Source of the DNA: a virus
Strand: one strand, 5' to 3'
Virus record (IMG/VR): IMGVR_UViG_3300035430_000282
Location: 1-20,989 of that record
Length of the DNA: 20,989 bases
The position numbers and the translations under genes were made by a program. Of the stretch, positions 1,816 through 20,479 are shown piece by piece; the first letter of the stretch is position 1, and each line of letters opens with the position of its first letter. The notes beneath the pieces are model-generated. The model did not search any database, was not told the origin of the DNA, and saw only the letters and a program-made list of their open reading frames with translations.

Positions 1816-3993
1816 ATGGAATTTGACAAACAAGATTTTTTTAACGGACTTTTAACTGAATTATCATTTAGAGTAGAAGATGGTATACCTGACTTAAAAA
1901 ACCCAAAACACTTAAAAGTTCTTGGTGAAATATTTGACGATATGGAACTGTATTCTGTTGGTGATATTCTTATTAGAAACTTACTCAACGAACAAGATGG
2001 GTATAAACACATCGGTGCAGGTATATTTGTATCTGATAGAGATGTAGATAGTGATGGTAAAGCTAAAGATGGTGCTAAAAAGTATAGAAAAGATGGTGAG
2101 GGTGAAAGTGCTTCTTACACACCTATTTCAGATGATGAAGCAGAAGATATAAAAAAGAAACAAGGAGAGGAAGGAGAGAAAGCCGCATCTTCTTATAACA
2201 AATCCCAAGAAAAAGGTGATGATGGTGAATTAGTGGGTGATGACCAACCAGAAGAAGAGGAACCAAAAGGAGCAAAAGTTCAAGGTTCTGATGTGTTTAG
2301 TCATGCACCAGATGTAAAGAAAGATAAAGAAGGTGAAGAAGGTGGTGATAATTTTGATTATTCAAATACCACTATTGTATTAAACAAAAGTTTAACAAAT
2401 TATCTTTCAACTGAAGATTTAAAAATAGTTAAAAATTTCCAACGAGATTATGATGATTTTGAAAAAAATCCTACACAAGAAAAGGCTGATAGGTTAATTC
2501 AAAAATATCAATTAAGAACAAATAATGCAGATAAACCAAAAATTTACCCTGGTGTAATTGCTAATTCACATAGACATATCTTCAATGGAACCAGTGCAAA
2601 TGGTTCGGGTAGTGTAAAAAACAGAAAAATTGTTGATTTAATCAATCAACACTCAAGTGAAAAAGTACCAACTGCTTCTAAAAAAGATTTAACTGACCCA
2701 TCTAAACCAATGGGTGAAGCAACTAAACCTAAATCATCACAATTTGGTAAAGGTAGAACGGCAGATGAAGATGCTGGTGTTAGTAACATTATGAAACCAG
2801 AAAACAATGTATCATTTGATGGTATGGAAAAGAAATATCTTAAGTTATATGGGCCATTAGATGATAACGGTAATCTTTTAATACCAAGTAATAAACACAC
2901 GGATAAGTATTTAGAACAAGCTCTTGGTGGTTCACTTGATGAGGCAATTGAAAAGGCAAGAGAACTTGAAAAAACAATGAAGTTAAGTCCTGAAATTGGT
3001 AATGCATTGGTTGATTATCAAAATGAGCAAAAGGCTATATTAGAAAAATATAAAGGTAACTTACCTAATGAACAGGCTGCAAAAGAACTTCAAGATTCTT
3101 GGGGTAAATATACTCAAAGAATTATTGCCGTAAATCCAAAAATGGCAAAATCAATGATTAAAAATCAGGCAGAAGTATTCATTTATAGTTATGAACTTGC
3201 AAAAGGAGAAGAGGTATACCTTCCAGCTCATCCATCGTATCCAGCAGCGGATAAAATAGTAAAAACAGAAGATGGTGTAAATGGAGAAAGAGTTACTGGT
3301 GTAAGTGTAAAGGTTGGTGATGATGGTAGTGTAAAGATAATGGGATTCCCAACAGAAAATCAACAAATGTTAAGATACCATGTAAATAAAAAATATAGAG
3401 AAAACACAAGTAGTAGACCAGGTCAAGAAGGTTATGCCATTGGATTAAAAGATGAACTTGTTGATTCTGACCTCGAAATGGATAAGCTTCTAAATGAAAG
3501 TGGTATGGTTGAAATAATTCAAGATAAAAAAGAATACTATAAATTACTCCGAGAATATAAACAGTTTATGAAAGACCTTCAAGATAATAAAAATTATTAT
3601 GGTAAAGGTGCTATGAGTGAAGAGGACAACCAAAAATTAAAGGATAAGAAAAAAGAGTTAGTTGAAAAAATTCAAAAACTTGTTGATATGGATAAACTAA
3701 TTGAAAAGTGTGGTGAGAAAAATGCCAAATCATTAGTTAAGACGAGTCCTGGTAAACTAATACAATATATTAACTACTCTGCAGCGTCAAGTACTAGTGG
3801 TGGTGTTCAAGGTATCACATCACATTCGGAAAGAATTGATAGTGATGGAACCGTGGACATGGCAACAAAAGAATTTCCAAATGATTGTAAAAAACTTGAT
3901 TTTTCAACTTATAGAGAACATGAAACTGTAAGAAATGGTGGTTTATTAGTCGGTGTCACCCATCCTGACAGTAGTAATGGTGAAATCATTTAA
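1816..3993 (+). CDS. Large charged protein of unknown function
   Basis: I do not recognise this 725-residue protein. Residues 1-60 look like a small folded helical domain (FNGLLTELSF, ILIRNLLNEQ). Residues about 65-185 are low complexity and very rich in Lys, Glu, Asp and Gly, probably disordered. The rest is mainly helical, with a likely coiled coil around residues 555-640, and a glycine/serine-rich C-terminal part ending GVTHPDSSNGEII. There is no signal peptide or membrane segment and I see no catalytic motif. It lies between fibre genes and early genes, 49 bases after the LamG gene, with no Shine-Dalgarno and an AT-rich TATATTTATA element 3 bases before ATG. A virion-associated or scaffold-type role is possible but not shown. 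Confidence 0.6.
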   Translation: MEFDKQDFFNGLLTELSFRVEDGIPDLKNPKHLKVLGEIFDDMELYSVGDILIRNLLNEQDGYKHIGAGIFVSDRDVDSDGKAKDGAKKYRKDGEGESASYTPISDDEAEDIKKKQGEEGEKAASSYNKSQEKGDDGELVGDDQPEEEEPKGAKVQGSDVFSHAPDVKKDKEGEEGGDNFDYSNTTIVLNKSLTNYLSTEDLKIVKNFQRDYDDFEKNPTQEKADRLIQKYQLRTNNADKPKIYPGVIANSHRHIFNGTSANGSGSVKNRKIVDLINQHSSEKVPTASKKDLTDPSKPMGEATKPKSSQFGKGRTADEDAGVSNIMKPENNVSFDGMEKKYLKLYGPLDDNGNLLIPSNKHTDKYLEQALGGSLDEAIEKARELEKTMKLSPEIGNALVDYQNEQKAILEKYKGNLPNEQAAKELQDSWGKYTQRIIAVNPKMAKSMIKNQAEVFIYSYELAKGEEVYLPAHPSYPAADKIVKTEDGVNGERVTGVSVKVGDDGSVKIMGFPTENQQMLRYHVNKKYRENTSSRPGQEGYAIGLKDELVDSDLEMDKLLNESGMVEIIQDKKEYYKLLREYKQFMKDLQDNKNYYGKGAMSEEDNQKLKDKKKELVEKIQKLVDMDKLIEKCGEKNAKSLVKTSPGKLIQYINYSAASSTSGGVQGITSHSERIDSDGTVDMATKEFPNDCKKLDFSTYREHETVRNGGLLVGVTHPDSSNGEII

Positions 3994-4043
3994 TAAATAA
4001 TATATACTTCTATATTGCATTTAAACACCTAAATACATATTTG

Positions 4044-4069
4044 TTTAACAGATTAGTATTGTATATTTA
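4044..4069 (+). repeat. 26-base direct repeat, copy 1
   Basis: An exact 26-base sequence, beginning TTTAACAGATTAG and ending TGTATATTTA, lies just before the glycosyltransferase ATG. It recurs exactly at 4819-4844, over the 3' end of the same gene. Read in the gene's frame it would encode LTD then stop, as at the true 3' end, which suggests this copy is the relic of a similar gene end. The last part also forms TTGTA-TATT-TACAA with the next bases. Confidence 0.85.
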
Positions 4070-4072
4070 CAA

Positions 4073-4831
4073 ATGAAAAAAATTTTACTTAACTTTTTTG
4101 GTCAACTAAGATTTTGGGATTTACAAAATACAATTCAACCATTTAAAGAATACTTAGAACAAAATGGATTTGAAGTGGATATTTTTGGTACTTTTTGGGA
4201 TGATACGTATACAAATAAATTTTTAAGGAAAGATAGTTTAAATATATTTGATAAATTAAATTTAATTGAAGAGCCAACTTTAAAACCACAAACTCTTCAA
4301 AAATATTTTTATTCATTAAAAGAATCGGTAAAACTAATAAATTATGAATATGATTTTATAATCACATCTAGACCAGATATATTTCTTGAAATTAATAAAA
4401 AAAGTCATACAATACATGACTTTACTCAAAATATAAAAGATAATCATATATATGTTCAAAAATTACATTATGAAGAAAGAGATAATGATTATTGGATTGA
4501 TGATAAAATTTTTATTTCAAATTTAAACACTCTCAATATAATTTCTAAAACATTTAATTACTTTATAGATGGTAAATTAGATTTTGAACTATTATATCAT
4601 CGTGGGTTATTAAATGTACTTAATTTTTTTAATATAACTGTAAAAAATGATGTCCAATTTTTTAAAATTAATCTGATTAGGCATTATTTGTATTCTAAAT
4701 ATCCATTTGAGGGTGGTTATCTATATAAAGGTGAACTTGTACGAAATATTGAAAAAAAGTTTCAAGATACCTCGGAGTGGATAAAATACGTTGAAAAAAT
4801 ACATAAAATTCAAAATGATTTAACAGATTAG
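4073..4831 (+). CDS. Putative glycosyltransferase
   Basis: The 252-residue product starts MKKILLNFFGQLR, a first beta strand of a Rossmann-like nucleotide-sugar fold. It contains YDFIITSRPDIFL at residues 93-105, resembling the Y-D-[F/V]-I-I-x-x-R-x-D element of uncharacterised and WavE-like glycosyltransferases, followed by WIDDKIFISN (141-150), similar to the D-D-x-[F/I] step in those families. The D in RPD and the DD pair are plausible metal or nucleotide-sugar ligands. The gene is especially AT-rich and is bracketed by the 26-base direct repeat, so it may be a mobile or exchangeable cassette. Possible roles are modification of phage DNA, of virion protein or of host glycans. The family call is moderate; the acceptor is unknown. 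Confidence 0.5.
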   Translation: MKKILLNFFGQLRFWDLQNTIQPFKEYLEQNGFEVDIFGTFWDDTYTNKFLRKDSLNIFDKLNLIEEPTLKPQTLQKYFYSLKESVKLINYEYDFIITSRPDIFLEINKKSHTIHDFTQNIKDNHIYVQKLHYEERDNDYWIDDKIFISNLNTLNIISKTFNYFIDGKLDFELLYHRGLLNVLNFFNITVKNDVQFFKINLIRHYLYSKYPFEGGYLYKGELVRNIEKKFQDTSEWIKYVEKIHKIQNDLTD

Positions 4832-5319: not shown

Positions 5320-5721
5320 ATGCCGATAAAACAACATAAAACCATAGAAGAAAACGAACCTATTTCGTTTGTTAAGTTTGACCATCCATTAGTTATAAAG
5401 GATATAGAAAAAAAATATCCTGAAATGACTGATGAATTCAAACGAATAATGTGGACACAATATGAAATGTTCTGTTTAAAACAGTCAAATTACGGTCCTG
5501 ACAATATTTCTGTTGGAACTAATCTTGATTCAATTGCTGATATTAAACTAGCTATGCAAGGATTATGGTTCCGTATGAACGATAAGGTTCAACGATTAAA
5601 GCAACTTATCATCAATAGTAAAGTTGATTTAGTAGCAGAATCAGTTCAAGATACACTATCTGATTTGTCTGTCTATGGTATCATAGGACAGATTGTAAAA
5701 AACAAAAAATGGGGTAAATAA
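5320..5721 (+). CDS. DUF1599 / nucleotide modification-associated (Nmad1-like) protein
   Basis: The 133-residue all-alpha protein matches the DUF1599 pattern: a helix ending KQSNYGPDNI (residue 57 on), a serine/glycine stretch, RMNDKVQRL at 85-93, and the helix AESVQDTLSDLSVYGII from 106. The acidic residues E107, D111 and D115 resemble the metal-binding face of MazG-like nucleotide pyrophosphohydrolases, to which such helical families are compared. The family has been linked by gene context to nucleotide or DNA modification in phages, but I know of no settled reaction. It has its own strong promoter with an overlapping palindrome, and lies directly before gp32, so it is probably an early, regulated gene. 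Family call is fairly good; enzymatic role is inferred. Confidence 0.6.
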   Translation: MPIKQHKTIEENEPISFVKFDHPLVIKDIEKKYPEMTDEFKRIMWTQYEMFCLKQSNYGPDNISVGTNLDSIADIKLAMQGLWFRMNDKVQRLKQLIINSKVDLVAESVQDTLSDLSVYGIIGQIVKNKKWGK

Positions 5722-10199: not shown

Positions 10200-10379
10200 A
10201 TGAAAAAATTTTATAGAAGTAAAACAAACAGAAAATTAAGTGGTATCTGTGGTGGATTGTCGAATCACTTTGATACAGACCCGTTGTTATGGAGATTATT
10301 ATTTGTAATAATGTTCTTTACGGCTGCACCAATGATAATACTTTATATAATAACAACTTTAATAACAGAATCAAAATGA
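10200..10379 (+). CDS. PspC-domain membrane peptide
   Basis: The 59-residue protein begins MKKFYRSKTNRKLSGICGGL and continues SNHFDTDPLLWRLLFVI, the diagnostic PspC signature (basic arm, G-[V/I]-CGG-L, [D/I]DP-xx-[V/L/W]RL). It is followed by one hydrophobic segment (about residues 33-56, rich in Ile, Leu, Phe) and stops with ESK. PspC senses or buffers inner-membrane stress and partners PspA/PspB in bacteria; here the gene is only the minimal PspC core. Its stop overlaps the next start as ATGA, which implies translational coupling to metK. It is too short for many gene callers. A role in protecting the infected cell's membrane or controlling host stress is inferred. Confidence 0.8.
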   Translation: MKKFYRSKTNRKLSGICGGLSNHFDTDPLLWRLLFVIMFFTAAPMIILYIITTLITESK

Positions 10380-11341
10380 TAAGAACCGCAGAATGTGTAT
10401 CACCGATGCACCCCGATAAAATGTGTGATAGAATATCTGATAGTATATTAGATTTTTATTTAGAAAGACACCCACGAGCACGAGTTGCTATAGAAACTTG
10501 TGGTGGAATGGGTAAAGTATTTGTAACAGGTGAAGTAAATTCAAGTGTTTTAATTACTGATGAAGAAATAACTGAAATAGTACATAGTATCACCAAGGAT
10601 GATACCTTAGAAGTCATAACTAATATCAATCAACAATCACCCGAAATATCTAAAGGTGTTGATATAGGTGGTGCGGGTGACCAAGGTATTATGATTGGAT
10701 ATGCTGTAAGAGAAAATCCTTTCTTTTTACCACAAGAATACTTTTTAGCAAGAGAACTTTGTAGACATATCTACAAGAAGTATCCTTACGATGGAAAAAC
10801 TCAAGTTACTATGAATGGTAACTCACTTAAAGTAGTTGCTTCATTCCAAAATGCACCCAAAGAAGAATTAGAAGGAATGGTAAGAGCATTTTTTAGTATA
10901 TTTCCCATGTATGCAATAGATACATTACATTGTAATCCAGCCGGTGATTGGAATATTGGGGGATTTACTGCTGATTCTGGTTTAACTGGTAGAAAACTAG
11001 CAGTTGATAATTATGGCCCACGAGTTCCACTTGGTGGTGGTGCTTTTAGTGGTAAAGATTGTACTAAAGTAGATAGAAGTGCGGCATATATGGCTCGTAG
11101 AATTGCAGTAGATTTATTAGAAGAAGATGAAAATAGATTAGAAGTAATTGTTCACTTGGCTTATGCTATTGGTAAGAAAGAACCTTTACAGGCTACCGCA
11201 GTTATTAATGGAAGATACCATCATATAAAAGGATATGATTTATCACCAAAAGGTATAGGGAACTTTTTAGATTTAAGAAAACCACAATTTGAAAAAACTG
11301 CTCAATGGGGACATATGGGAGCAGGATTTAAATGGAAATAA
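10376..11341 (+). CDS. metK: S-adenosylmethionine synthetase, compact
   Basis: MetK joins ATP and methionine to make S-adenosylmethionine, the methyl donor. The start MIRTAECVSPMHPDKMCD matches the conserved N-terminus (E-x-V-x-x-x-HPDK), so the ATG at 10376 overlapping the PspC stop is chosen over upstream starts. Conserved elements are HPDKMCD (12-18), the ATP motif GAGDQG (99-104), DWNIGGFTADSGLTGRK, the P-loop-like GGGAFSGKD (220-228) and KVDRSAAYMAR. The C-terminus keeps AYAIGKKEP and TAQWGHMG. At 321 residues it is clearly shorter than bacterial MetK (about 384), mainly from shorter loops in the first and last thirds; all motifs I know to be required are present. Neighbour genes include a methyltransferase at 18789 that would consume its product. 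Confidence 0.88.
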   Translation: MIRTAECVSPMHPDKMCDRISDSILDFYLERHPRARVAIETCGGMGKVFVTGEVNSSVLITDEEITEIVHSITKDDTLEVITNINQQSPEISKGVDIGGAGDQGIMIGYAVRENPFFLPQEYFLARELCRHIYKKYPYDGKTQVTMNGNSLKVVASFQNAPKEELEGMVRAFFSIFPMYAIDTLHCNPAGDWNIGGFTADSGLTGRKLAVDNYGPRVPLGGGAFSGKDCTKVDRSAAYMARRIAVDLLEEDENRLEVIVHLAYAIGKKEPLQATAVINGRYHHIKGYDLSPKGIGNFLDLRKPQFEKTAQWGHMGAGFKWK

Positions 11342-12434: not shown

Positions 12435-13091
12435 ATGAAGAAATATACCGCGGAAGAACTAAAAGACAATTACGATAGATTTATTAAAGCGATAGAAAAG
12501 TCATTCGAAGGAGAAAGACTTGAAAAATTGCTTCATATGTACTCTGAGGAAGAGTTGGGTATAAATCTATTGTTATCTCCGGCGAGTGGTAATAAGAATT
12601 ATCATAATGCATATGAAGGTGGTTATATTGACCATGTAATGAATGTTGCAAGGAACTCACTTCGTATGATGAAACTATATAAAGACGCTGGTGGTATTAT
12701 AGATTTTACACAAGAAGAACTACTATTTTCAGCTTTCCATCACGATTTGGGTAAATTGGGTGATAAAGGAAATTTTTACTATGTTCCAAATGATAGTGAA
12801 TGGCATGTAAAAAATAGAGGAGAGTTCTACAAAAGAAATACCGAATTATCATATTTAACTCACACAGATAGAACTTTCTTTATACTTCAAAAATATGGTA
12901 TTCAATATACCGAAAACGAATACTTTGGTATTAAACTTACAGATGGTATGTATGACGAAGATAACATTAAATATTATAAAGTTTTCGATGTATCTAAATA
13001 CCTCAAATCTAACATTCAATATATTCTCCATTGGGCTGACCACATGAGTACAACCATTGAGAGAGATTTAGAATTAAAAGAATCTAATTAA
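12435..13091 (+). CDS. HD-domain phosphohydrolase
   Basis: The 218-residue protein carries the metal-binding pattern of the HD superfamily: GGYIDHVMNV (His67), FHHDLGKLGD (His103-Asp104) and WADHMST (Asp202). YHNAYEGGYIDHV resembles the entry to the HD domain of YhaM-type nucleases and of nucleotide hydrolases. The N-terminal 50 residues are helical. Substrates in this superfamily range from dNTPs and cyclic nucleotides to RNA ends, so the reaction cannot be named. It is first in the run from promoter 12387 and is separated from the asparagine synthetase by one base, so the two are co-expressed. The superfamily call is firm and the function is open. Confidence 0.75.
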   Translation: MKKYTAEELKDNYDRFIKAIEKSFEGERLEKLLHMYSEEELGINLLLSPASGNKNYHNAYEGGYIDHVMNVARNSLRMMKLYKDAGGIIDFTQEELLFSAFHHDLGKLGDKGNFYYVPNDSEWHVKNRGEFYKRNTELSYLTHTDRTFFILQKYGIQYTENEYFGIKLTDGMYDEDNIKYYKVFDVSKYLKSNIQYILHWADHMSTTIERDLELKESN

Positions 13092-13092
13092 T

Positions 13093-14790
13093 ATGTGCGG
13101 AATTTTAGGAGGTAATCTCATTAGTTCCATAGATGACATGAAAGATGGATTAACATCCATGATGCATCGTGGTAGTGAAGGAAATACAATAATTTCATTC
13201 AAGAACGGAATGAAGATGGCACATAATAGATTATCTATCCAAGACTTATCAGAAACAGCAAACCAACCAATGGTTTCGGAATGTGGTAGATATTATCTTA
13301 CATTTAATGGTGAGTTATGGAAATCTACATTTGATAAGTTTGATAAAGAACTTAGGTCAAAACATAATTTTAAAACCAGTAATTCGGATTCAGAATTACT
13401 TTTATATTTTTTGATTGATAATTATAAAAATTTAAAATCAAAAATGAATGAATTGGAAGGTATGTTTTCTTTTGCATTTTATGATAAAGAAGATGATTAC
13501 TTAATTCTTGGTAGAGATTTTATGGGTAGGTTGCCTCTGTATTATTATATTGGTGATGATGGATTTGTATTTTCAAGTGAAGTTAAAGGTTTGACAGAAT
13601 CTATTGATGATTTAAAATATTATAACATAGATAAAGGTTCTAGATTTAACTCAACTTATAAAAAAGAAGAAAAAATACAGATAGTAGAGCCTGGTACTTT
13701 TATAGGATTTAGAAAAAATAATATACATAACCAATACATACCACATCATGTAGTCTGGTTTGATTTTAAACCAAACCCATTTAATATAAACCACCCAACG
13801 GGTTATTATCCAAGAACTGATTCGGAGTTTGAATCATATGATTCCGAAGATAAAGGAATTGATTATTATTCATCTGAATTTAAAAGATTATTAGAAGCCG
13901 CGGTTGAAGATGAAATGATCGCAGATGTACCTATATGTACTATTTTAAGTGGGGGTATTGATAGTACAATAATTAGTTACATTCTTTCTAAGAAATTAAA
14001 ATCTCAAGGAAAGAGATTAACAGCATTCGTAGTAAATGTTACTAAAAATAGAAAATCCAAAGTAAAAGATGACTTATATTACGCAAGATTAGCAGCTGAA
14101 TTATTTGATATAGACTTAATTGAAGTTAATTATGATGAATTAGATGTAGAACGAAAATTAATACATGCTATTTGGGCATCAGAAACTCATAAATGGACTC
14201 AAGTTTCACCTGCTGTGATTCAACTTGGATTAGCTTGGAGAATTAGAAAAGAAGGATTTAAAGTTGTATTTGGTGGTGAAGGTGCAGATGAAATATTTGC
14301 TTCATATGGAGATGTAAAAAGGTTTTGTTGGCATGAACCAATTTGGTATCATCAAAAGAGAGTAAACTTATTAAATAGTTTACATAAAACAAATTTGATT
14401 AGAACAAACAAAGCAATGATGTATGGTGGTGAGGTAGAACTAAGAACACCTTTTATTAATAAAAAAGTCATCGACTTTGGACTAAGAATACCAACAAAAT
14501 ACAGAGATGATAAAGAAGGTAAAGGTACACGAATGAAATATGTTCTAAGAACGGCCTTTGAAGATGAAATTGGTTCATTAAATGAAGAATTATTATGGAG
14601 ACCAAAGAAAACTTTCCAAGTGGGTGCACATAGTGATTTTCTAAAAAAACCAATTTGGAAAAAAAAAATAGAAGACATATTTGAACAATTATTTATAAAA
14701 AAAGATGCAAATAAAGAATTACGACAATTGCTTGCTCAAGGACAAAGCGGACATAACAGAGGTAGTATTACAGAGATTTCCATCGATTAA
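13093..14790 (+). CDS. asnB: Asparagine synthetase (glutamine-hydrolysing), class II amidotransferase
   Basis: The 565-residue protein has both domains of AsnB. The N-terminal glutaminase starts MCGILGG with the catalytic Cys2 and shows HRGSEG, NRLSIQDLS, FNGEL (71-75) and DSELLL. The C-terminal synthetase has the PP-loop LSGGIDST (285-292), FGGEGADEIFASYGD and RTPFINKKVIDF. The usual reaction transfers ammonia from glutamine to an adenylated carboxylate, normally aspartate; AsnB relatives also amidate other acids, so the substrate is not certain. Differences from E. coli AsnB include HRGSEG for HRGPD and an extra Asp/Glu/Tyr-rich stretch (about 236-256) before the synthetase core. It starts one base after the HD gene and overlaps the next gene by 86 bases. 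Confidence 0.85.
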   Translation: MCGILGGNLISSIDDMKDGLTSMMHRGSEGNTIISFKNGMKMAHNRLSIQDLSETANQPMVSECGRYYLTFNGELWKSTFDKFDKELRSKHNFKTSNSDSELLLYFLIDNYKNLKSKMNELEGMFSFAFYDKEDDYLILGRDFMGRLPLYYYIGDDGFVFSSEVKGLTESIDDLKYYNIDKGSRFNSTYKKEEKIQIVEPGTFIGFRKNNIHNQYIPHHVVWFDFKPNPFNINHPTGYYPRTDSEFESYDSEDKGIDYYSSEFKRLLEAAVEDEMIADVPICTILSGGIDSTIISYILSKKLKSQGKRLTAFVVNVTKNRKSKVKDDLYYARLAAELFDIDLIEVNYDELDVERKLIHAIWASETHKWTQVSPAVIQLGLAWRIRKEGFKVVFGGEGADEIFASYGDVKRFCWHEPIWYHQKRVNLLNSLHKTNLIRTNKAMMYGGEVELRTPFINKKVIDFGLRIPTKYRDDKEGKGTRMKYVLRTAFEDEIGSLNEELLWRPKKTFQVGAHSDFLKKPIWKKKIEDIFEQLFIKKDANKELRQLLAQGQSGHNRGSITEISID

Positions 14791-15562
14791 TGTTTTAGGT
14801 GCGTATGAAAAACCTACTTTAGACAAAGACAAAATTAAAGTTTTATCTGTAAAATTTAGCAAGGTTGGTAAGAAAACATTTACTGATTACAAAAATCTTG
14901 AATGGGTAGTCTGTCGTTCTCATGGTATTGATAATGTTAATATAGAAGAAGCTAGAAAAAGAAATATTGGAATTGTAGCAACTGCACCAACCGCCAAACC
15001 TTGTTCTAATTGGATTTACAATAAAATTAAAGAAGATGATTCTATTTTAATTTTTGGTAATGGTGCAATTTCAAGAGAGTTACAGAAGAAAATTGGAAAC
15101 TTTAATGTTGTAAACTCCAAAACATCACAAGAAGAAATAGATAGATATTTAAAATTTTGTAAAACAATTATTATTACAATACCATATAATAAGAAAACTA
15201 AAAATTATTTTGATAGAACATTCTTCTCTAAGATAAAAAATAAAGTAGACATAATTTCAATATCACGTGGAGAAGTGTTTGATAACGCGGCAATCTTAGA
15301 TTTTTCAGTATCAGGTAAGTTAAGAAAGGGTCATTTTGATATTCTTACCACAGATGGTAGAAATAGATTATTAGAAAGAAAAGAAATACGATATTATGAA
15401 CATTCATCATGGGAGTATAATCAAATAAAAGATTCTCAAGGTAAGTTGGGTGGTTATGTAAATATAGAATTTGCTGATAACTTAAAATTAGTTGTAGATA
15501 GTTGTTTAGAAGATAGAGTACAAGATGCTCACCTCAATAGAATAAAGAATGTATGGTTTTAG
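14705..15562 (+). CDS. Compact D-2-hydroxyacid dehydrogenase-like protein
   Basis: The 285-residue product resembles the SerA/PdxB-type NAD-dependent family. It has LEWVVCRSHGIDNVNIEEARKRNIGI and then VATAPT, the nucleotide loop LIFGNGAISREL (third Gly replaced by Ser), the catalytic-Arg step ISISRGEVFDNAAI, and EHSSW where the catalytic His normally sits. The acidic residue expected in a DVF-x-EP motif is not clear (FDILTTDG). Between VATAPT and the GxG loop only about 20 residues remain, against roughly 50 usually, so the inter-domain helices are missing. ATG 14705 overlaps asnB by 86 bases; it is the only ATG in frame. An ATT at 14786 overlapping the asnB stop is an alternative. The family is likely, but activity is uncertain. 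Confidence 0.6.
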   Translation: MQIKNYDNCLLKDKADITEVVLQRFPSINVLGAYEKPTLDKDKIKVLSVKFSKVGKKTFTDYKNLEWVVCRSHGIDNVNIEEARKRNIGIVATAPTAKPCSNWIYNKIKEDDSILIFGNGAISRELQKKIGNFNVVNSKTSQEEIDRYLKFCKTIIITIPYNKKTKNYFDRTFFSKIKNKVDIISISRGEVFDNAAILDFSVSGKLRKGHFDILTTDGRNRLLERKEIRYYEHSSWEYNQIKDSQGKLGGYVNIEFADNLKLVVDSCLEDRVQDAHLNRIKNVWF

Positions 15563-16386
15563 GATTAACAGAAGATACTCCATTAGAGGAATATAAAATC
15601 AAAGGTCGTTCAGTTTGGGTAAAACGAGATGACCTTATGGGTGATGATATAAACCTACCGCCTTGGGGTAAAATGGCTGCAATTTATCGATTAGTTGATA
15701 AGTATGTTGATAAATCTAAACCTTTAACACATCTTTCAGTAGATGGTTCTTGGAGTGGTTGGACACTTGCAGCAATTTGTGAGGATTTAGGAATAGAGTT
15801 TTATTACTCACATCCAAACTCTAAGAAGATTTCTCAAGAACTTTTGGGTATGGTTAAAGAAAAGTATCCATATTGTAAATTTAATCCTATCAGACCTAAT
15901 ATGATGAGTATTATGTATAACTCATTAAAGAAACAAGCAAAAGAAGAAGGATGGCAAATGTTGCCTTATGCGTTCAACCATGATTTTTATATGGATTATC
16001 TTTCAGATAGAATACAACCTTATACACACTTTAAAAATCTTGTAGTTTCAAGTGGTAGTGGAGTTTCTCTTTCTGGTCTTGCAAAAGGATACTTTAGAGA
16101 AGAATTAAAAGAGTTCTGGCCACAAACAGATAAAACAATCTATACAACTTGTGTATCATCTGAAAGTTCTATTAATAAAATGTTAAAGAAAAATGGATTA
16201 GCACAACTACCTATTAAGGTTAGAAAATCAGAATATGATTTTGATGATAGATTAGATGGATACGAGGCACCATTTCAATGTAATCAATTTTGGGATATCA
16301 AACAATGGCATTGGTTAGAAAATAATATAGATTCTATTGAAGGAGATATTCTCTTTTGGAATATCGGTGGAATTTATAAATTTTAA
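15553..16386 (+). CDS. Fold-type II PLP enzyme, ACC deaminase/D-cysteine desulfhydrase-like
   Basis: The 277-residue protein follows the tryptophan synthase beta/ACC deaminase plan. TPLEEY and VWVKRDDLMG match the family's TPL and KREDL elements; Lys40 in NLPPWGKMAAI is the probable PLP Schiff-base lysine; HLSVDGSWSGWTLAAICEDLG corresponds to the GG-x-QSNH helix start, altered here to DGSWSGW; VVSSGSGVSLSGLAKGY (164-180) is the phosphate-binding glycine loop; the end NIGGIYKF corresponds to HTGG-x-x-GLF. It is shorter than ACC deaminase (about 335). The family works on small amino acids (deamination, desulfhydration, beta-replacement). It overlaps the dehydrogenase by 10 bases and closes the run before the next promoter. 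Substrate unknown. Confidence 0.65.
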   Translation: MVLGLTEDTPLEEYKIKGRSVWVKRDDLMGDDINLPPWGKMAAIYRLVDKYVDKSKPLTHLSVDGSWSGWTLAAICEDLGIEFYYSHPNSKKISQELLGMVKEKYPYCKFNPIRPNMMSIMYNSLKKQAKEEGWQMLPYAFNHDFYMDYLSDRIQPYTHFKNLVVSSGSGVSLSGLAKGYFREELKEFWPQTDKTIYTTCVSSESSINKMLKKNGLAQLPIKVRKSEYDFDDRLDGYEAPFQCNQFWDIKQWHWLENNIDSIEGDILFWNIGGIYKF

Positions 16387-16394
16387 AAAAACAC

Positions 16395-16423
16395 TTGACT
16401 TTAAAAAAATAATTCCGTATTAT
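16395..16423 (+). promoter_or_regulatory. Sigma70-type promoter for the 776-residue gene
   Basis: TTGACT (16395-16400), 17 bases, TATTAT (16418-16423). The expected start is near 16430, giving a leader of about 28 bases to ATG 16458, with no Shine-Dalgarno. It separates the two genes that follow from the amino-acid-type enzymes before it. Confidence 0.6.
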
Positions 16424-16457
16424 ATAGGTGTTATGAGAAACAACAAAATCCTTAATT

Positions 16458-18788
16458 ATGGCGAAAGTATTAGACGAAAAAAAACTAAATCAAGAAAGAA
16501 AAAGAATAGAAGACATCATCCATCTATATAAATCAAAAGATGAATTACATACCACATTATTACAACTTATAAAAGAAAAAATATTTAATGTTTCAATTGT
16601 TTTAACAAGAAAACTATTAAATGATGTATATGTTCTTGACAAAAAATACTTAGAAAGAAATTCTGAAAAATCTAAAATGGATGATGAAAAAAAACAGATA
16701 GAGTTTATTCCATCTCTTCAGCAAAGATATAAGATATCAAGAATATTGAGATGGATTTATGGAAGAGGTTCATATCCGTTTTCATCAACATGGAGTGAAA
16801 AGATGGCAGGTGGGTTCTTGATTGGATGTCTTACCGACTCTGATTCGGGTCAAATAGTAAAAATAAATTTAAAAAACTATTTAACCAATTTTTTAGCTTC
16901 TGTATGGGAGGGGGATTCTAAATCACAAATTAGTAACTTCTTTATTAGAATGAATCATACTAATCCAGAAGAAGGTGTTTTGAAAATTTTAGATGAAAAA
17001 GGTAAAGAAACTAAATGGGTAAGTAAATTAACCGAGAATCCAGAAGTTTTCAAAAATCCAGACCCTCTTATTGAATGTATTGCATTTTGGAAAGAACAAC
17101 AAAAATTAAGTACAACTCCATCTTGTTATTTACATTTTTCATTTATACAAGAACATTATCCTGAATTAGCAAATAGGTTTCTAAATCAACCAATTACTAT
17201 TATTTGTAATAATTATACAGCCGCACAAGAACTGTATGCTTATGTAAAAGAAGCATCGGTCTCTGCAAAACACGAAATACCACAATTACATATGTCTATG
17301 GTTAACACATCATATGGTGCGGATATTAGTGATTGTCATTTAAAAGAAAAAGTATTTAAAGATACTATTTTTATGAATAGGGAATATCCTAATTCTTATC
17401 CTTGGAGTGAAGTGGTTCATCAAATTCATCAAACTAAAAATAAAGGATATACACAAAAAGAAGATTCTTTCTCACATACAATATTTTCATTAGTTCTAAA
17501 TAAACCAGAGGATAATCAGTTCGACCTTAGTCTTTTAAAAAGCTCTCCATTTAATTCAATTTTATGTACACCATTTAATAATGAGGCACTTGATAGAGGA
17601 CAATTTTTGAGTATTTTTTATAATTCATTAACACAAGATAAAAAGGATTTATTTCTTGATTCATTCCTTTTTATATCTGAGTGTTATGGACATTTGCTTA
17701 ATGATGTGTTCATTAACAATAAAATTAACTTAAAAAATTGGTATGAGACCGAACATAGATCTCTAAGAAATTTTATTGAGAATCTATCCAATGAAGGAAA
17801 AATAGAAGTTCCAGACAAATTTTCATTTGATTATACCAATAGTCAATTTAAGAAATTTCAATATACACATAGTGATTATCATATTTTGAATTGGATAATA
17901 GTATGTTCTCTTGGATTCTTATTTAATAATAAAACAAATAAAAATCTTGGAGCTATAAAAATTCAAGAAATATTTGAAACTATGTTAAACCAATTCAAAT
18001 CAAATTGGTTTGTATATCTTTCAAACAAAGATAATGTTAAGTTTTACACAGATACGAAACAATATTTAAAATTTGAAGAAATATTCAAAAGACCTCCATC
18101 ATCTATCATTGAAATGCTTTTACACACAACATGGGATTTAAATGTTTTAAGTACCGCAATAGGTAACTTTATTCAAACAGAAGTTTTGGTAGAGGTACAT
18201 AAGTTGTATGTAGATAATGTGGCTAATTCAAAACTTAGAAATTCATTTGAAACTGTACTAAATAAACCAAACTCTACTATTAAGGTTTTTGATTTTGAAA
18301 TGTACAATGCATATGGTGAAGTTATCAAGTGGAAAGGTGGTATAGATATGGGTCATCCTTTAAATAAAATATTGGGTGGTGATATGAAAAAGAGCGAAGT
18401 TATATTTGAAGATTCTGTCTTGAATCAGAATTCTTCAAAGGAACGAGATATAGTAAAAGACCCTAAGAAATACGAATATATTTTATTCAAAGTTCATCAA
18501 AAAAAACTAGCTGATGTTATTAGTTCAATACCAAATTATACTGATATTATTTCTTTACCTGATGCAATGTTAACACCTGAAGATGTGGTCAACAAAGAAA
18601 GAGTTCAAATTGAAACTTTTAGATTTGATTGTTTTGTAGCTTACATCACATGGAAATATGATGACCCAAATAAAGTACAAGAAATAAAAAAATGGGGAGA
18701 ATTGGAATGTGGTGATTGTAATAATTCTTGGGATTACCTAATAGACCCACCTCAAGAGTACATTGATACATTAGAAAGTTTTATATAA
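16458..18788 (+). CDS. Large unrecognised protein (776 residues)
   Basis: I cannot place this protein in a family. The N-terminus (residues 1-50) is a charged, probably coiled helix with Lys/Glu-rich runs; about 95-125 holds RYKISRILRWIYGRGSYPF and KMAGGFLIGCL; the middle is a long mixed alpha/beta region with many aromatic residues (for example HSDYHILNWIIVCSLGFLF near 475); the C-terminus has a CGDC pair (750-753) followed by SWDYLIDPP. No Walker, nuclease, helicase or transmembrane pattern is convincing. It has its own promoter and its stop directly adjoins the ATG of the methyltransferase, so the two are very likely co-translated and may form one functional unit. Its size and codon use match neighbouring genes, so it is a real gene. 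Confidence 0.65.
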   Translation: MAKVLDEKKLNQERKRIEDIIHLYKSKDELHTTLLQLIKEKIFNVSIVLTRKLLNDVYVLDKKYLERNSEKSKMDDEKKQIEFIPSLQQRYKISRILRWIYGRGSYPFSSTWSEKMAGGFLIGCLTDSDSGQIVKINLKNYLTNFLASVWEGDSKSQISNFFIRMNHTNPEEGVLKILDEKGKETKWVSKLTENPEVFKNPDPLIECIAFWKEQQKLSTTPSCYLHFSFIQEHYPELANRFLNQPITIICNNYTAAQELYAYVKEASVSAKHEIPQLHMSMVNTSYGADISDCHLKEKVFKDTIFMNREYPNSYPWSEVVHQIHQTKNKGYTQKEDSFSHTIFSLVLNKPEDNQFDLSLLKSSPFNSILCTPFNNEALDRGQFLSIFYNSLTQDKKDLFLDSFLFISECYGHLLNDVFINNKINLKNWYETEHRSLRNFIENLSNEGKIEVPDKFSFDYTNSQFKKFQYTHSDYHILNWIIVCSLGFLFNNKTNKNLGAIKIQEIFETMLNQFKSNWFVYLSNKDNVKFYTDTKQYLKFEEIFKRPPSSIIEMLLHTTWDLNVLSTAIGNFIQTEVLVEVHKLYVDNVANSKLRNSFETVLNKPNSTIKVFDFEMYNAYGEVIKWKGGIDMGHPLNKILGGDMKKSEVIFEDSVLNQNSSKERDIVKDPKKYEYILFKVHQKKLADVISSIPNYTDIISLPDAMLTPEDVVNKERVQIETFRFDCFVAYITWKYDDPNKVQEIKKWGELECGDCNNSWDYLIDPPQEYIDTLESFI

Positions 18789-20012
18789 ATGACTAACGGA
18801 GAAGATATATTTGAAAAGTATAAAGGGATGAAACCCTATCTTTACATCTCACCAGAGGAATGGACTGAGATTAAAGAAACATATCCTAAAGATGTGGTAA
18901 AGGAACGATTGGCAGAAGTTTGTATGACCTACCCACTTCCTTACGCAGATATATCAGAACAAGATTGTATTTCCGAATATGGTAAATTAAAAGGAATCAA
19001 ATGGCCAGATTACTTTAAAGAAGGTGAGTGGTTTCCAAGAAAGGCAGTAGAATCTCGTTATCCTTTAACTTACGAAGGAACTCAAAAATACTTTAGTAGA
19101 TTAAATACTGGTAATGATGTATCAAATTATTTCCAACAAGCAAACAGATGGAGTGTCGATGGTTCAGTTTCACCAGGTCCGAAAAGAACTTGGGAATCTA
19201 AGAAGTTTATGACCTCATTAATGGGTTCTGCATATTCTTTGAAACTACCACAGATTGGTAAAAGAGAATTAAGAACAATGATAGGGTTAAGAAAGTATAT
19301 CTGTTCTCAGTTCAAACCATCTATAGCCAAGATGTTTTATGAGTATAGTAATGCAAAGACAGTTTTAGATTTTTCAATGGGATGGGGAGATAGATTGGCA
19401 GGTGCTTTTACTGCAGAATGCGTTGAACATTATGTTGGATTGGATCCTCGTAAAGAAAATCATCCTATCTATGAACAACAAAGAGATTTTTATGAAAAAC
19501 ATACTACTTTCTTTGAATCACCAACTAAAACTGATTTCTATTGTTCACCTGCAGAGGATTTCGATTATAGTGAATATGAAAATTATTTTGATTTAGTTTT
19601 TACTTCACCACCATATTTTTCAGTAGAACGATATTCACATGATGATACTCAAAGTTGGGTTAGATATAAAAATATTGATGATTGGAATGAAAACTTCTTA
19701 CACAAAACTCTTGGTAAAATAATTCCAACTGTGAAAAAAGGTGGTATCATTGCAATAAATATTGCTGATGTATATTCAAATACTAAAGGTGGAAAGGATT
19801 GGTTAGAAATCACCAATCCTATGGGAGACTTTCTAACATCACAAGGTATGATTTATAAAGGATGTATAGGAATGGAAATGGCAAAAAGACCAAATAGTGG
19901 TGGTGCTGGAACTGCTAAAGATACCGAACAATATAAAGATGAAACTCTTCAATTAACAGAAGAAACAAAAGATAAAAGATTTTGTGAACCAATTTGGGTG
20001 TTTGAAAAATAA
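18789..20012 (+). CDS. SAM-dependent methyltransferase, DNA N4/N6 type (TSPPY)
   Basis: The 407-residue protein has a C-terminal Rossmann methyltransferase: motif I TVLDFSMGWGDRLAGA (191-206), then VGLDPRKEN for the acidic ligand of SAM, and motif IV FDLVFTSPPYFSVERYS (268-283). [D/N/S]PPY is the catalytic motif of amino-methyltransferases acting on adenine N6 or cytosine N4. GGIIAINIAD and the late EPIWVFEK strands complete the fold. Residues 1-190 are a separate, Trp/Tyr-rich region (for example KWPDYFKEGEWFP) that I do not recognise; it could contact DNA or another substrate. No restriction enzyme lies nearby. The ATG follows the preceding stop without a gap. DNA is the likeliest target, but other nucleic-acid or small-molecule substrates are possible. 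Confidence 0.7.
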   Translation: MTNGEDIFEKYKGMKPYLYISPEEWTEIKETYPKDVVKERLAEVCMTYPLPYADISEQDCISEYGKLKGIKWPDYFKEGEWFPRKAVESRYPLTYEGTQKYFSRLNTGNDVSNYFQQANRWSVDGSVSPGPKRTWESKKFMTSLMGSAYSLKLPQIGKRELRTMIGLRKYICSQFKPSIAKMFYEYSNAKTVLDFSMGWGDRLAGAFTAECVEHYVGLDPRKENHPIYEQQRDFYEKHTTFFESPTKTDFYCSPAEDFDYSEYENYFDLVFTSPPYFSVERYSHDDTQSWVRYKNIDDWNENFLHKTLGKIIPTVKKGGIIAINIADVYSNTKGGKDWLEITNPMGDFLTSQGMIYKGCIGMEMAKRPNSGGAGTAKDTEQYKDETLQLTEETKDKRFCEPIWVFEK

Positions 20013-20086: not shown

Positions 20087-20479
20087 ATGACTGATTTTCA
20101 AAAAGTTTCACAATGGTTAAAAGAAAATTGTGATGTCGATGTAAAACTTGGACAAACTACCTCTTATATCGGTGGTAGTGTAAAAACTATTTTTATTCAT
20201 CACAATTATAATTTAGAAAAGAATGGATTAATCGCTCTACTTCATGAAGCTGGTCATGCAATACAACCTTCAGAAGATGAAGATGTATTCGGGCCAAACA
20301 GATATAAAGTAGTTGATGATTTAGAACATCCAAAGGAATTTAAGATGTACCAATTTCTAAATGAAGTTGATGCATGGGATAGAGGAGAATCTATCGCTCT
20401 TGAGTTGAATATACAACTTGACAAAAAAAGATGGACAAAAGAAAAAGAAGAAGCTTTATTAACTTATTACGTAGCCTAA
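20087..20479 (+). CDS. HEAGH-motif zinc metalloprotein
   Basis: The 130-residue protein has the zincin motif LLHEAGHAIQ (HEAGH at 53-57) on a helix after a strand, IFIHHNY, and a later acidic helix MYQFLNEVDAWDRGESIAL that could supply the third zinc ligand (Glu or Asp), as in small IrrE/ImmA-type (M78) peptidases, which cut regulators. The length is close to the minimal core of that group. It lacks a signal peptide, so it should act in the cytoplasm. It starts after a strong promoter and its TAA stop is part of the polymerase ribosome-binding site (TAAGGAGG), tying the two genes together. Zinc-dependent protease activity is inferred from the motif; the target is unknown. Confidence 0.6.
   Translation: MTDFQKVSQWLKENCDVDVKLGQTTSYIGGSVKTIFIHHNYNLEKNGLIALLHEAGHAIQPSEDEDVFGPNRYKVVDDLEHPKEFKMYQFLNEVDAWDRGESIALELNIQLDKKRWTKEKEEALLTYYVA

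Follow-up and report, generated by a model that had tools for sequence, protein, structure and literature searches.

The window, meaning here the whole stretch of DNA analysed, is a 20,989-base virus record carrying T4-like phage genes. The six open reading frames singled out by the first-pass annotation were all found there with the coordinates and order it had given, all on the + strand. The first (12435-13091) encodes an HD-domain phosphohydrolase-like protein (HD; phrog_28876, metal-dependent phosphohydrolase, 3e-13; weak Pfam HD match, 0.039) and is followed, after a gap of 1 base, by the gene for an AsnB-like glutamine amidotransferase/synthetase with an altered substrate site (AsnB; 13093-14790; PF00733, 6e-46, plus class-II GATase). 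AsnB overlaps by 86 bp the gene for a diverged D-2-hydroxyacid-dehydrogenase-like protein (DH; 14705-15562; PF02826, 2e-11), which in turn overlaps by 10 bp that of PLP (15553-16386; phrog_7093, 4e-23), a predicted fold-type II PLP enzyme of the phage M6 gp52 family. Beyond a gap of 71 bp lies ORF776 (16458-18788), a rare 776-aa orphan in a variable slot, with no match in Pfam, NCBIfam or phage records; abutting it is the gene for a TSPPY N4/N6 amino-methyltransferase-like protein (18789-20012; PF01555, 2e-5, with TSPPY). The overlapping of AsnB, DH and PLP is real, and chance does not account for such tight packing, since relatives keep the AsnB-DH overlap (74-86 bp in the six loci L002, L014, L015, L036, L037 and L038, 41 bp in L054 and 8 bp in L006). 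The cassette is surrounded by polB, clamp, RFC and RNR genes. The nearby metK (10289-11341) and Nmad1-like gene (5320-5721; DUF1599 score 22.2, just under the cut-off of 25) are also where they had been placed.

Several smaller features of the window were noted in passing. Directly before metK, at 10200-10379, is what appears by eye to be a small PspC-like membrane protein; the metK start at 10289 falls inside its frame, and the true start is probably about 30 codons later. The protein encoded at 20087-20479 (130 aa) contains an HExxH motif (LLHEAGHA) and may be a small metallopeptidase; a homologue with 51% identity adjoins polB in locus L004.

AsnB, DH, PLP, ORF776 and the methyltransferase had been proposed to form a single pathway whose genes would co-occur across phage genomes. 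A first scan, in which the PLP protein was run against 2.9 million viral contigs, returned 14 relatives, eight of which show AsnB-DH-PLP with the order kept. An alignment-based PLP scan then yielded 79 loci, and the ORFs called around them fell into two forms, one having PLP with DH (as AsnB-DH-PLP, PLP-DH-AsnB, DH-PLP and other arrangements) and the other having AsnB and PLP with a thymidylate-synthase-like protein, TSlk (TSlk-AsnB-PLP). Profile search of the loci from PLP, DH and TSlk scans brought the number bearing PLP to 140, of which 77, all from uncultured phages, are distinct (<95% PLP identity). In these 77 the partner of PLP is TSlk in 45 and DH in 32, with no locus having both and none having neither, and partner and PLP are always on the same strand. 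AsnB is near PLP in 54 of the 77; it is absent near about 30%, and is missing from whole PLP-bearing contigs of 17-38 kb and from one of 278 kb.

Scanning in the reverse direction gave the same linkage. PLP is present at 57/67 DH loci, and in the ten that lack it the DH frame is cut by the contig end or stops within about 80 bp of it. PLP is likewise present at 70/78 TSlk loci; the remaining eight comprise four contig-edge loci and four genuine exceptions (L207-L210). Exclusion of one partner by the other holds in long contigs too: those of 221-288 kb with TSlk also carry a canonical thymidylate synthase and no DH, and a search of DH-type contigs of 135 and 202 kb found no TS-family gene. An apparent second TSlk in L007, L009, L011 and L097 was discarded as an unrelated protein that aligns only spuriously. 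AsnB, DH and PLP are thus one form of a conserved, widespread, phage-only cassette that swaps parts; the window has the DH-type form, and TSlk is found in its sister cassettes.

How the parts are swapped can be read from sequence identities. Within one type, where PLP proteins are >60% identical, AsnB identity is 65-100% and tracks that of PLP; across the DH and TS types it is only ~37%, even at PLP identities of 80-89%. When the DH/TS label is mapped on the PLP tree, 6 changes are required, and well-supported branches force at least 4 of them. Together these results indicate that AsnB and the partner are exchanged as a set while PLP stays, as would be expected if the substrate of AsnB depends on the action of DH or TSlk.

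The other proposed members fared differently, and the five-gene pathway was drawn too wide. ORF776 has relatives in just four other contigs (L038, L053, L054 and L095), and its slot, which follows PLP and is bounded on the other side by polB or the methyltransferase, is elsewhere filled by unrelated, partly nuclease-like proteins: GmrSD_N with HNH (L047:7293-8783), a GHKL ATPase (L041:5579-7195), a NERD-like protein with a Dam methyltransferase (L037:8916-9653 / L004), and others belonging to no family. We therefore rejected it as a pathway member. ORF776 itself has a weak HNH-like stretch (GHPLxKIxGGD); its AlphaFold model, with a pLDDT of 37, offers no usable fold, and its profile did not match the GmrSD/HNH protein of the slot. 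Our guess is that this is a nuclease slot, with ORF776 in a nuclease role, which the phage can afford because its own DNA carries a mark. As a feature of these phages, the slot after PLP has the look of a variable, restriction-like hotspot.

The methyltransferase gene is near 68 of the 77 distinct PLP loci, but when the methyltransferase itself was used for scanning, just 9 of the 35 long loci of its close relatives turned out to have PLP. It occurs mostly without the cassette, is not an obligate partner, and is to be regarded as a common neighbour independent of the cassette. HD, which had been seen as leading the run, is indeed upstream of AsnB in the window and in the same place in L002, L006, L014, L015 and L037; being near only 15 of the 77 loci it is a frequent, not a constant, neighbour.

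PLP itself has no match in Pfam up to E 0.1, and a sequence search of the PDB returned nothing below E 0.001. Its structure model is of high quality (pLDDT 93.7), and the best Foldseek match, to D-cysteine desulfhydrase (4d92) / ACC deaminase at 5e-12, leads us to predict that PLP has the structure of the fold-type II enzymes, with Lys40 as the predicted Schiff-base lysine. PLP resembles those enzymes in predicted fold and in the position of this lysine; it differs in having just 12-18% identity to them, a C-terminal WDxKxWxWL motif of its own, and a distribution confined to phages. A bacterial origin was considered and rejected, since two scans covering 84,980 bacterial and archaeal genomes turned up no relative. 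At the chosen cut-offs, 50,697 phage records yielded 62-63 cultured phages with a relative, all of the M6/YuA type (phages of Pseudomonas, Bordetella, Sphaerotilus and Stenotrophomonas, and Pseudanabaena phage Pam3). PLP matches M6 gp52 at 2.5e-20 (phmmer), the two having in common the lysine, the glycine loop and a C-terminal PFxCNxFW/YDxKxWxWL...FWN signature. The M6 enzyme is said, by Lee et al., to be a decarboxylase of the amino acid attached to the base.

This homology brought the M6 thymidine hypermodification system into the comparison. In M6, CN2, SN1 and Pam3 the PLP gene is in a cluster with radical SAM (photolyase in some annotations), TS-family and related genes, and Pfam directly shows the amino acid:DNA transferase (ADDT) and 5-hmdU kinase families in the M6 cluster. 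M6 DNA contains 5-(2-aminoethyl)deoxyuridine, 5-NedU (PMC6449724), and SN1 is described as an M6-like phage that carries this cluster (PMC9476957). The likeness to our cassette lies in the homologous PLP enzyme with its C-terminal signature, in the TS-family hydroxymethylase of the TS-type relatives, and in the closeness of the cluster to a DNA polymerase gene. The difference is that our cassette has an AsnB-like amidotransferase with DH or TSlk: neither the 5-hmdU DNA kinase (PF18748) nor the amino acid:DNA transferase (PF18724) was found in any of ten related contigs, one of them of 169 kb, these records being fragments. Radical SAM (PF04055) gave one match in the same ten contigs (G003) and none in the other nine. 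Because the kinase and transferase were tested for and not found, the cassette is related to the M6 thymidine pathway and not a member of it; and because they are not found and radical SAM matched just once, it is mainly PLP and TSlk that tie the cassette to DNA. To our knowledge, the amino-acid-type hypermodifications described so far (M6/ViI) are on thymidine, and their synthesis involves both a 5-hmdU kinase and a transferase for the amino acid.

The closest relatives of TSlk among solved structures are MilA, a CMP 5-hydroxymethylase (8.5e-9), and then thymidylate synthases. Its catalytic Cys151 is invariant, and the base-selecting position is Asp182 in 9/9 aligned sequences. This position is Asn in enzymes acting on uracil and Asp in those acting on cytosine (MilA Asp186, T4 Asp179; PMC5175136, PMC6400193), and TSlk is accordingly predicted to be a cytosine hydroxymethylase, like MilA and the T4 dCMP hydroxymethylase in both catalytic Cys and cytosine-selecting Asp. 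M6 gp58 apparently has Asn at the same place (by eye, in a GANAV stretch). A TS-family pyrimidine hydroxymethylase with the cytosine-type Asp is thus present in the TS-type sisters and was not found in the DH-type contigs searched. TSlk is unlike MilA and the T4 enzyme in being short (about 232 aa) and in its mixture of sugar-selecting residues: in the same alignment Lys130 is as in MilA (ribose type) and Ser172 as in deoxyribose enzymes, so that the sequence does not distinguish CMP from dCMP as substrate.

MilA belongs to the mildiomycin pathway. That it is the best solved relative of TSlk, and that TSlk has one sugar-selecting residue of each type, would fit a product other than modified DNA: a small molecule that diffuses or a nucleotide acting as a signal, for example a nucleoside-antibiotic-like compound made from hydroxymethyl-CMP. 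We consider this unlikely: M6 has a member of the PLP family in its cluster for modifying thymidine in DNA, the neighbourhood is one of replication genes, and near the loci read nothing was recognised as a gene for transport or self-resistance.

Two peculiarities of TS-type loci may be mentioned here. In L099 (5036-6490) the TSlk frame continues from a GIY-YIG-like stretch (484 aa in all), perhaps a homing-endonuclease insertion beside the gene. In L039 (4552-5724) and L047 (2938-4110) an ABC-ATPase-GNAT fusion (phrog_11143, 1.5e-126) is present between the methyltransferase and TSlk; it looks Mom-like by eye and would fit DNA modification.

The family profile of AsnB matches E. coli asparagine synthetase B (1ct9) at 6.6e-86; the cassette protein has both domains, and the glutaminase Cys2 and the SGGxDS PP-loop are invariant in the 15 sequences compared. 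It departs from the E. coli enzyme at the TTxR stretch, which in asparagine synthetase binds aspartate and ATP (PMC5775275). This motif is absent from 52/52 cassette AsnB proteins read, the corresponding sequence resembling WTQVSPA in DH types and TVQMEVG in TS types. With the aspartate-binding motif lost, cassette AsnB is probably not an asparagine maker, and supply of amino acids to the host, one of the alternatives entertained in the first-pass annotation, is disfavoured on the same ground.

DH is a distant member of its family: its profile matches glyoxylate reductase / phosphoglycerate dehydrogenase at 1e-18. It has the nucleotide-binding GxG and the catalytic Arg188 and His233 of the D-2-hydroxyacid dehydrogenases, all invariant in 20 sequences; it differs from them in being shorter and diverged, and in not clearly keeping the catalytic Glu, for at that position (Glu or Asp) the 20 sequences offer no single aligned acid other than Asp212. 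The family names of the three proteins would suit a form of auxiliary metabolism in which the phage provides the infected cell with asparagine or other amino or hydroxy acids by means of AsnB, the phosphoglycerate-dehydrogenase-like DH and the threonine-dehydratase-like PLP, and papers on auxiliary genes in viral metagenomes do name asparagine synthase. We nevertheless regard this as rather unlikely, for it must accommodate not only the lost TTxR motif but also a PLP protein without bacterial relatives in our scans, a location amid DNA replication genes, and a strict alternation between DH and a nucleotide enzyme that amino-acid supply explains poorly.

Some DH-type phages without AsnB (L057:6866-8044 and similar loci) have a gene for an Asp/Asn-hydroxylase-like 2OG oxygenase (PF05118, 1.8e-12) before PLP, and a weakly glycosyltransferase-like gene after it. 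Both could be further tailoring enzymes.

Scanning with the methyltransferase of the window disclosed a third form, seen at 22 loci (L254:7007-8973, L249, L283 and 19 others), in which another AsnB subtype is followed by an overlapping gene for a GNAT acetyltransferase. It occupies the same place before the methyltransferase, with no PLP, DH or TSlk nearby, and HD is upstream of AsnB in 12 of the 22. The GNAT-type AsnB has WQNxGSA in place of TTxR, and GDLSDE in place of GEGSDE. Members of both groups, the GNATs and the AsnB-like PP-loop enzymes, are known from RNA modification, which could be taken to mean that tRNA, other RNA or protein is the target instead of DNA. That seems to us very unlikely, given that the TSlk family consists of mononucleotide enzymes, that the cultured relatives of PLP are in DNA-modification clusters, and that the window has no tRNA gene.

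On balance we favour the view that pyrimidines of the phage's DNA receive a non-standard group through a phage-specific pathway, which exists in three interchangeable forms, AsnB-DH-PLP being one. Production of a modified base is the best supported of the first-pass readings, PLP having relatives in thymidine-hypermodification clusters and TSlk being a predicted cytosine hydroxymethylase. What was computed in its favour comprises the linkage of PLP to DH or TSlk, the mutual exclusion of these two, the tie of AsnB subtype to partner, the homology with M6, the Asp of TSlk and the motif loss in AsnB. Counting against it are the missing M6-type kinase and transferase, the PLP loci and whole contigs that lack AsnB, the four TSlk loci without PLP, the lack of a TS-family gene in the DH-type contigs searched, and the poorly conserved acid residue of DH. 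In TS-type phages the chain would start from a 5-hydroxymethyl cytosine nucleotide made by TSlk. PLP, by homology with the M6 enzyme, may act on the amino-acid-bearing base or on its donor, and AsnB, from the chemistry of its domains, would convert a carboxylate of the added group to an amide with glutamine ammonia and ATP. In DH-type phages DH might reduce an oxo-acid intermediate, plausibly one released by PLP, as its fold and adjacency suggest. The modified base would protect the phage genome from nucleases.

The best reading is a new pathway, a modular pyrimidine hypermodification with an amidotransferase in place of the M6 kinase and amino-acid transferase. A more specific version is possible, though we hold it only tentatively: a hitherto unknown class of DNA hypermodification in which AsnB gives pyrimidines (5-hydroxymethylcytosine in the TS type) a side chain bearing an amide, with finishing modules (PLP with DH, PLP with TSlk, or GNAT) that can be exchanged for one another at a single site in the genomes of T4-like phages. 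If the pathway is as we propose, retention of the M6 PLP enzyme with replacement of the kinase and transferase steps by an amidotransferase would be new chemistry, possibly on a new base, cytosine, and would yield three defined sets of enzymes with predictable, measurable products. Phage genes that usually go under the names asparagine synthase, threonine dehydratase and dehydrogenase, and are readily taken for helpers of metabolism, would be explained as well.

Two further observations concern proteins outside the cassette. A fibre-like protein with an apparent cupredoxin-type domain (HPFRIQ...YYQCTAHASMGG) is encoded at 1-876 of the window. L004, a phage contig, encodes at 1959-4742 a predicted protein of 927 aa whose start resembles a Bacteroidetes outer-membrane receptor (ITGTVVDASTSERLPG), a likeness that suggests either a Bacteroidota host or gene capture.
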